DNA from: a candidate division WWE3 bacterium RIFCSPLOWO2_01_FULL_39_13
GTDB taxonomy: Bacteria > Patescibacteriota > WWE3 > 2-01-FULL-39-13
Assembly: GCA_001772665.1 (NCBI GenBank)
Contig: MEVH01000015.1
Location: forward strand, 13,223 to 50,283
Length of the DNA stretch: 37,061 nt
Reading direction: 5' to 3'
Shown: one piece after another, positions 1,366 to 25,880 of the stretch
Layout of the letters: each line of letters begins with the position of its first letter
How positions within the stretch are numbered: the stretch's first letter is position 1
Notes under the pieces: model-generated
What the model was told of the DNA's origin: nothing
The model's input: the letters and a program-made list of their open reading frames with translations, nothing else
Database searches by the model: none
Translations under genes and position numbers: made by a program

Positions 1366-1686
1366 ATGACTCCACTAGCACACCTTTCAAGCAGCCTTCT
1401 AATTTATCAACTACCGCGAGCTTACGCACGCGGTATGCTGTAGCGTCGCTTCGTTCCTTGCATTCCCACCTTCGGTGGAAAAGTAATGCTCGCTTTGCGA
1501 GTTTTATGGCTCAAATCCCTCGACCTTACGGTCGGGGTATTTCGCTCGCATTATAAAGGCGCTGTTCTCTACAACCTCAACTTGCCAACAGGGCTAATCT
1601 TTGTACTGGCGCTTGCCGGATCTTTCGCTCCGGACATTGATGGACTGTCGGATTTCTACGGAGAATTAAGCGCCGAAAAATGGTAA
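1366..1686 (+). pseudogene. YdjM-like membrane-bound metal-dependent hydrolase, interrupted by the 154-bp repeat
   Basis: MTPLAHLSSSLLIY before the repeat and KGAVLYNLNLPTGLIFVLALAGSFAPDIDGL after it are in the same frame; joined they read as a YdjM/DUF457-like N-terminus (MTPLAH...GSxxPDID). TATAAT 7 nt upstream of ATG 1366. Confidence 0.6.
1404..1557 (+). mobile_element. Multi-hairpin repeat copy 1 (candidate non-autonomous insertion element; core 1408-1550 flanked by TTAT)
   Basis: 153/154 identical to 25614-25767 (only difference G1448 vs A25658). Contains serial hairpins TACCGCG..CGCGGTA, CCACC-TTC-GGTGG, CTCGC-TTT-GCGAG, CGACC-TTAC-GGTCG. Confidence 0.85.
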
Positions 1687-9243: not shown

Positions 9244-9282
9244 CCTCAGATTATATCAGCAGCCGGTACCAATAACTGAAAG

Positions 9283-9344
9283 TGGTGGTGAGGGTGAGAA
9301 TCGGTCGCCACAGGCGACTTTCAGACCGGTGCCATGACTCACCA
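9283..9344 (-). other. Truncated tRNA-Phe-like copy with hairpin replacement
   Basis: Minus: TGGTGAGTCATGGCACCGGTCTGAAAGTCGCCTGTGGCGACCGATTCTCACCCTCACCACCA; shares anticodon-region and 3'-end sequence with tRNA-Phe at 9371-9446. Confidence 0.8.
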
Positions 9345-9370
9345 ATTAACTTATCCTCTACACCTTCTTC

Positions 9371-9446
9371 TGGTGGTGAGGGTGAGAATCGAACTCACAT
9401 AGCCGGTTTTTCAGACCGGTGCCGTGACCAACTTGGCTACCTCACC
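9371..9446 (-). tRNA. tRNA-Phe(GAA), CCA encoded
   Basis: GGTGAGG...CCTCACC acceptor, CCGGT-CTGAAAA-ACCGG anticodon arm, GTGAG-TTCGATT-CTCAC T-arm, ACCA end. Confidence 0.95.
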
Positions 9447-9472
9447 AAAATTTCAAACACATTATTTTATCA

Positions 9473-9532
9473 TGGAGGCCCGTATCGGAATCGGTCGCCA
9501 CAGGCGACTTGCAGACTCATGCCTTACCTCCA
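9473..9532 (-). other. Truncated tRNA-Cys-like copy A
   Basis: Minus: TGGAGGTAAGGCATGAGTCTGCAAGTCGCCTGTGGCGACCGATTCCGATACGGGCCTCCA; start of an 86-bp tandem unit. Confidence 0.8.
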
Positions 9533-9558
9533 TCCATTATCTTATCCATCGCTATATC

Positions 9559-9618
9559 TGGAGGCCCGTATCGGAATCGGTCGCCGTAGGCGACTTGCAG
9601 ACTCATGCCTTACCTCCA
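9559..9618 (-). other. Truncated tRNA-Cys-like copy B
   Basis: Same as copy A except for the hairpin loop (plus strand CACAGG vs CGTAGG); exactly 86 bp from copy A and 86 bp before intact tRNA-Cys. Confidence 0.8.
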
Positions 9619-9644
9619 TCCATTATCTTATCCATCGCTATATC

Positions 9645-9718
9645 TGGAGGCCCGTATCGGAATCGAACCGATGGTGAGAGTTTTGCAGACTCATGCCTTG
9701 CCACTTGGCGAACGGGCC
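9645..9718 (-). tRNA. tRNA-Cys(GCA), CCA encoded
   Basis: GGCCCGT...ACGGGCC acceptor, GAGT-CTGCAAA-ACTC anticodon arm, ATCGG-TTCGATT-CCGAT T-arm, TCCA end. Confidence 0.95.
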
Positions 9719-9721
9719 ACA

Positions 9722-9976
9722 CTATAAATTTAAATTATCTCCTAACTTCTTTTTAATTTGCTCCCTTCCTCGTCCACTCTTGATAAACTTTTCTCTTCTT
9801 TCAGCTTCAAACTTTTTTTTATAACATTCAAAATAAATCAACACAGGTTTCTGCCCACGAGTTGTTCTAACCTGACCGTTTAAATGCTCTAGCATCCTCC
9901 TGTCTAAATTATTCGTATATCCATAATAAAACCTGTTATTCTTTTGTCTAAGGACATAGACATAATACATTTTCAC
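9722..9976 (-). CDS. Small GIY-YIG nuclease-domain protein
   Basis: YYVYVLRQKNNRFYYGYTNNLDRRMLEHLNG...ERREKFIKSGRGREQIKK; classic GIY-YIG/UPF0213 pattern. Confidence 0.9.
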   Translation of the reverse strand: MKMYYVYVLRQKNNRFYYGYTNNLDRRMLEHLNGQVRTTRGQKPVLIYFECYKKKFEAERREKFIKSGRGREQIKKKLGDNLNL

Positions 9977-9978
9977 CG

Positions 9979-10066
9979 AGACCCGTATCGGAATCGGTCA
10001 CCGTAGGCGACTTGCAGACTCATGCCTTACCACCCTCCTACGGCGGGCATGCTTGGCGAACGAGCC
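9979..10066 (-). other. tRNA-Cys-like copy C with two hairpin insertions
   Basis: Minus: GGCTCGTTCGCCAAG[CATGCCCGCCGTAGGAGGG]TGGTAAGGCATGAGTCTGCAA[GTCGCCTACGGTGAC]CGATTCCGATACGGGTCT; acceptor pairing kept through G-U pairs. Confidence 0.75.
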
Positions 10067-25562: not shown

Positions 25563-25591
25563 GATATAAGAAAACACTGCCGAAAACTCAA
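25563..25591 (-). promoter_or_regulatory. rpmH promoter
   Basis: TTGAGT - 17 nt - TATATC, -10 ends 5 nt before the rpmH ATG. Confidence 0.6.
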
Positions 25592-25613
25592 ACTTATCCT
25601 CAGCAGTAGGAAA

Positions 25614-25767
25614 TTATCAACTACCGCGAGCTTACGCACGCGGTATGCTGTAGCGTCACTTCGTTCCTTGCATTCCCACCTTCGGTGGAAAAGTAATGCT
25701 CGCTTTGCGAGTTTTATGGCTCAAATCCCTCGACCTTACGGTCGGGGTATTTCGCTCGCATTATAAA
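25614..25767 (+). mobile_element. Multi-hairpin repeat copy 2, between rpmH and dnaA
   Basis: 153/154 identical to 1404-1557, same orientation; core 25618-25760 flanked by TTAT. Confidence 0.85.
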
Positions 25768-25826
25768 ACTACTAACTGGTGGGATTTTAGCACATCCAAT
25801 GGATTATTGGAAAGCGCAGATATCCG

Positions 25827-25856
25827 TGTGGACAAATACTTATTGACTGTGGATAA
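25827..25856 (+). promoter_or_regulatory. Two DnaA-box-like sites upstream of dnaA
   Basis: TGTGGACAA (25827-25835) and TGTGGATAA (25848-25856, reverse complement of TTATCCACA), same orientation, 21 bp apart. Confidence 0.7.
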
Positions 25857-25871
25857 GTCTGGGAATAAAAT
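25843..25871 (+). promoter_or_regulatory. dnaA promoter overlapping a DnaA box
   Basis: TTGACT - 17 nt - TAAAAT; spacer contains most of the TGTGGATAA box. Confidence 0.6.
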
Positions 25872-25880
25872 GAACCAGCA

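Follow-up and report, generated by a model that had tools for sequence, protein, structure and literature searches.

A short palindromic sequence occurs twice in the window (the whole stretch of 37,061 nucleotides that was analysed, from a candidate division WWE3 genome, hereafter G000), one copy lying within a YdjM-like reading frame. This raises the question of whether the sequence is a mobile element, where exactly it begins and ends, and which machinery moves it. It is considered here, with a probability of about 0.6, as a short mobile element devoid of a transposase, from a family not described before, inserting precisely at TWAT/AA (the slash marks the insertion point) and moved by a Y1 (HUH) route.

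Copies in the window and the YdjM-like frame

The two repeat copies listed by a first-pass annotation, made from the letters alone, were recovered at 1401-1557 and 25611-25767 with 99% identity across 157 nt, and the 147-nt elements that they contain differ by a single base (Table 1). Their palindromic, hairpin character was borne out as well, the predicted fold of copy 1 being better than 200 of 200 shuffled sequences on both strands (z of -3.3 and -4.2). Neither the window nor seven related loci gave an Rfam family for the element.

When the 147 nt (49 codons) from 1408 to 1554 are taken out, the two flanks fall in one reading frame, and the joined 57-aa flank peptide is collinear with positions 1-47 of Pfam YdjM (PF04307) across the junction (E-value 0.0015, 18.5 bits, for a family cut-off of 29). 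The interrupted YdjM-like gene of the first-pass annotation is thus retained as regards the common frame and the match spanning the junction, with two corrections: the insert holds an in-frame TAG stop 33 nt from its start, so that the gene is broken, and what copy 1 interrupts is already just an N-terminal remnant.

Copy 2 is inserted at a putative replication origin region, the rnpA-dnaA spacer (window 25590-25880), where the GC skew changes sign; a perfect DnaA box (TGTGGATAA) is found at 25848, 84 nt from the copy.

Table 1. Element copies, their parts and the YdjM-like remnant, in window coordinates
Feature	Positions	Strand	Remarks
Element copy 1	1408..1554	+	147 nt, CAAC...TTAT, between T1407 and AA1555; bounds from empty sites in relatives and from 27 sites
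hp1 of copy 1, left stem-loop	1412..1435	+	TACCGCG AGC TTAC GCA CGCGGTA; compensatory changes
Module A of copy 1	1443..1485	+	43 nt; 0 to 3 tandem copies at other sites of the genome
Right part of copy 1	1486..1554	+	hp2 arm ATGCTCGC, hp3 (1517-1537), terminal GCATTAT
Element copy 2	25618..25764	+	147 nt; spacer between the rnpA side (-) and dnaA (+), just upstream of dnaA
hp1 of copy 2	25622..25645	+	match to the R1 covariance model, 64.3 bits
Module A of copy 2	25653..25695	+	43 nt
YdjM-like remnant, N-terminal part left of insertion	1366..1407	+	joined flanks match PF04307 1-47, below cut-off
YdjM-like remnant, continuation right of insertion	1555..1686	+	same joined-flank match to PF04307

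Boundaries and modular organisation

The base to the left of the element was T in 25/25 sites and was preceded by A in 23/25, and the right flank began with A in all 25 sites (AA in 23/25). The element ended with TTAT at its right side in 27/27 sites, whereas the left four bases were TTAT in only 10/27; the 17 remaining sites had other left flanks (TAAT, AAAT, CAAT, ATAT, ATGT, TTGT, and AAGA in one damaged copy). Being invariant while the left flank varies, the right TTAT is part of the element. The left flank is a preferred, degenerate target, TWAT, and no duplicate of the right end, and insertion takes place between T and AA(A) without target duplication. The first-pass annotation had described a 143-nt core bounded by a 4-nt TTAT target duplication. 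TTAT is indeed present on both sides of both window copies, but the duplication does not hold for the 27 sites, and the element proper is 147 nt long, right TTAT included. Terminal inverted repeats are absent (left end CAACTACCGC, against ATAATGCGAG for the complement of the right end).

CAAC opens the basic unit (about 48-117 nt) and is followed by the stem-loop hp1, the linker TGCTGWA, a right-end stem AATGC...GCATT and then AT. The left start varies (CAAC, AAAC, GAAC, CAGC and similar), and hp1 and a TGCTGWA-like linker were present in all copies, as was a right-end stem (AAT...ATT) closing beside the terminal AT. In nearly every copy this stem begins at a constant distance from the linker; its length is clearly above chance expectation in just 7/27. 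For hp1, which begins only 4 nt from the left boundary, 25 two-sided changes were counted over 16 sequences, affecting 7 of the 10 pairs; the covariation score was 0.413 against 0.135 for shuffled alignments (0/500 shuffles as high), and the pairing was lost when the partner was shifted by 1-3 columns.

In G000, copies carry module A 0, 1, 2 or 3 times, plus a 21-nt insert in the hp1 loop; the right part (1486-1554 type) is kept in copies devoid of module A and in those of the Roizmanbacteria genome and of G716 (see below). At one locus (L006), an element copy is fused to the right end of another element. The element is modular, with growth by modules in G000; the modules may arise by slippage, by unequal recombination, or by insertion of one unit into the TTAT end of another. 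At the same locus, a 90-aa ORF (ending IKEGKYIDIRVVDNKQTSEEE) has about 60 nt of its 3' end (about 375-436) repeated about 1.2 kb downstream (1620-1686), adjoining an element copy.

Distribution, empty sites and insertions in genes

In G000 (801 kb), 28 matching stretches were found at about 18 places, as copies and remnants. Relatives of the element were found in four more genomes of the class of G000, namely G001 and G002, which also share its family, and G011 and G012. A second class yielded three: the Roizmanbacteria genome (G392), plus G716 with five copies and G490 with one weak copy, the latter two from a search of 374 genomes of that class. The family thus spans two classes of Patescibacteria. 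Of 380 genomes drawn from the phylum, only 5 contained the element, so that its occurrence is rare and patchy. A public record, that of WWE3 bacterium CG_4_9_14_0_2_um_filter_35_11, likewise contains the G001 copy, which points to WWE3/Katanobacteria for G000 as well. Phage and plasmid collections gave no match to the element. A viral origin was rejected: 18 pattern matches in IMG/VR were taken as chance, since they were scattered and had no matching right part after the linker, and a stricter 19-nt pattern gave none. Pattern matches in Prevotella were discarded too, the two inspected being coding-sequence coincidences and the other Prevotella/Bacteroidales matches having the same spacing.

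Empty sites, which the first-pass annotation had suggested looking for in relatives, were found in two settings. In G716, three element copies sit in the loop of a multi-copy host repeat, of which empty paralogues read CACTTCCCTTAATAACATCTTCC (L149, L162, and L146 with one difference); the filled repeat L142 reads TTAAT[109 nt]AACATC, base-exact against the empty TTAAT/AACATC. Both gain and precise loss fit these sites. The second setting is recG of G001, where a copy of 75 nt (25 codons) lies in frame (ENISKY, insert, KGILEKLD). The recG of the sister genome G002, of the same genus, reads KKHKAISEKLD with no insert, and none is present in G000 or G004. Among 38 genomes of the class with a match, only G001 spans the insert region; about 35 others besides G002 are without insert, the matches of these other homologues stopping short of residue 109 of the 149-residue query, where the insertion lies, or barely beyond it. 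Gain rather than loss is firm for recG, since all relatives are without the insert. The empty sites leave an overlap ambiguity of at most 1-2 nt (T or AT). Precise presence/absence, together with the spread to many sites, establishes that the element is mobile, as the first-pass annotation had proposed.

Besides the element, G716 contains another mosaic palindromic repeat in multiple copies (ACAAGTTTC.CACTTCCCTTAATAAC ... GAAACTTGT), with 30 matches in this one genome (L142, L146, L162, L165-L171).

Copies in G000 are mostly intergenic. Out of 21 sites tested for open frames, three had an open in-frame copy: recG of G001, a hydrolase-like gene of G002 (19 codons, antisense orientation; a PDB search with this protein gave no match) and, near its start, an AAA/DUF4143 ATPase gene of G011 (23 codons). 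The inserts in the YdjM-like remnant and at a gene start in G012 are multiples of three that contain stops, and in G011 the element lies at the stop codon of infC (identified by eye). All five inserts with the gene frame continuing on both sides are multiples of three, which is suggestive of selection in this small sample; many intergenic copies are likewise multiples of three. Taken as a whole, the wider picture of a hairpin-recognised single-strand mobile repeat, circulating between Patescibacteria classes, growing by modules and extending conserved proteins, RecG among them, by in-frame peptides, and so acting as a source of protein change in reduced genomes, is judged unlikely.

One more copy (L099, near 1501-1580) lies just upstream of the start of a glycyl-tRNA synthetase-like gene, and adjoins a stretch resembling a T-box leader (GGGTGGAACCGCGG, other strand; by eye, with no Rfam match).

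Relation to known elements and mode of mobility

Small palindromic mobile repeats are already well known from pneumococcus, enterobacteria, Rickettsia and haloarchaea; a search of the literature on palindromic or miniature elements in these phyla (candidate phyla radiation) gave nothing relevant. The closest type is that of the PATEs (palindrome-associated transposable elements) of Haloquadratum, which derive from IS200/IS605-type elements and go down to 52 bp (PMC3119063). As in PATEs, there are no terminal inverted repeats, palindromes are found near both termini (the covarying hp1 and the right-end stem), base-precise empty sites in relatives and flank statistics indicate no target duplication (with the T or AT overlap ambiguous), and complete copies (48-190 nt) are too short for a transposase gene. 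Unlike PATEs, the element is bacterial (Patescibacteria), has hp1 4 nt from its left end and carries extra internal modules, and no parent IS605-type element was found among 13 Y1 loci examined.

With the ends of IS200/IS605 elements, IS608 in particular (PMC5934647), the element has several features in common: its hairpins are sub-terminal, it inserts 3' of a short target that stays in the left flank, its right end bears a short cleavage motif, and nothing is duplicated; it differs in having neither tnpA nor tnpB inside, and a left target (TWAT) less strict than the TTAC of IS608. Fixed left and right parts, variable tandem internal modules (here of 43 nt) and elements lying in or beside each other recall the pneumococcal BOX (PMC3049150), but BOX is tied to ISSpn2 by terminal inverted repeats, which are absent here, and the likeness is one of architecture, with no sequence relation claimed. 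Like the Rickettsia palindromic elements (PMC10969869), it is short, palindromic and found in frame inside unrelated protein genes; unlike them, it is open in frame at only 3 of the 21 tested sites, its G000 copies are mostly intergenic, and no conserved peptide was shown. Dispersed hairpins and mosaic arrays are shared with REP/BIME sequences (PMC8266576). We consider it as a new family of PATE-like type, with BOX-like modularity in G000.

By analogy with PATEs and IS200/IS605 elements, the element would move in single-stranded form, its hairpins serving for recognition, and the mover would be a Y1 (HUH, IS200/IS605-type) transposase supplied in trans, a route already proposed for PATEs. At the right end, the GTAA that precedes the stem is able to pair with TTAT, and GAAA could do so less well. 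At the left end, CAAC adjoins the target, so that cis pairing of a left guide is impossible; with hp1 only 4 nt from the boundary, there is no room for a guide in the manner of IS608. A Y1_Tnp gene was found in 5/5 element-bearing genomes of the class against 22/42 overall, a weak association (a chance of about 3% under independence of the genomes, which does not apply). The genome-encoded TnpA, RAYT or IS with matching ends that the first-pass annotation called for was not found among the 13 Y1 loci. The IS200-like gene of G000 (L035), truncated near a contig end, was rejected as mover, its end hairpin being different. Since no transposase with matching ends was found, the HUH route is what we infer as most likely, the mobility itself being shown by the empty sites.

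A precise mobile element moved by a non-Y1 agent, such as a recombinase or the unexplained route of the Rickettsia palindromic elements, is possible though rather doubtful. The 13 Y1 loci, none with matching ends, the Roizmanbacteria genome G392, which gave no Y1_Tnp match, and the nearness of hp1 to the left end, at odds with the IS608 guide scheme, all speak for such an agent, whereas sub-terminal hairpins, a fixed right tetranucleotide and a similar left target, with neither inverted repeats nor duplication, form the IS200/IS605 pattern (PMC5934647, PMC7290912). Integron attC, Xer dif and bridge-RNA (IS110) sites were rejected, their defining motifs being missing.

Other explanations fare much worse. 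TTAT on both sides of both window copies, and of 10/27 sites overall, is what a classical MITE of a DDE transposase with a 4-nt target duplication would leave; this is very improbable given the 17/27 sites without left TTAT, the right TTAT at all 27, ends that are no inverted repeats (CAACTACC, against ATAATGCG when the right end is complemented), and empty sites permitting an ambiguity of only T or AT. We give no more credit to a REP element mobilised by a RAYT (TnpA-REP): RAYT-like Y1 genes (about 190-260 aa) do occur in G001, G002, G011 and G012, but the GTAG or similar tetranucleotide that stands before REPs (PMC8266576) lies 5' of neither hp1 nor hp2, and several of these genes have flanking palindromes of their own, unrelated to the element. 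Thus, of the "MITE/REP-like" label given by the first-pass annotation, the mobile, non-autonomous and palindromic character is kept, and both family names are dropped. A conserved non-mobile RNA or a terminator resembling a repeat would account for the covarying hairpin, the mostly intergenic copies and those at stop codons; as sole explanation it is refuted by the precise empty sites, and it is very improbable, the unrelated contexts (inside recG, the hydrolase and the AAA ATPase gene included) and the lack of Rfam matches counting against it too. The Y1-moved element remains the preferred reading. With its base-precise empty sites, covarying hairpin and natural in-frame insertions, the family offers a tractable case for testing how elements devoid of a transposase spread through very small genomes.

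The RAYT-like Y1 genes at L130, L134 and L136 have their own flanking palindromes (e.g. GGGGTCTGACCCC and CCTCGGGGGTTAAAG), each different, and these loci are regarded as separate REPtron-like systems in WWE3. Within the window, at 9282-10061, 86-nt repeats containing GGCCCGTATCGGAATCGGTCGCC alternate with tRNA-Phe and tRNA-Cys genes.
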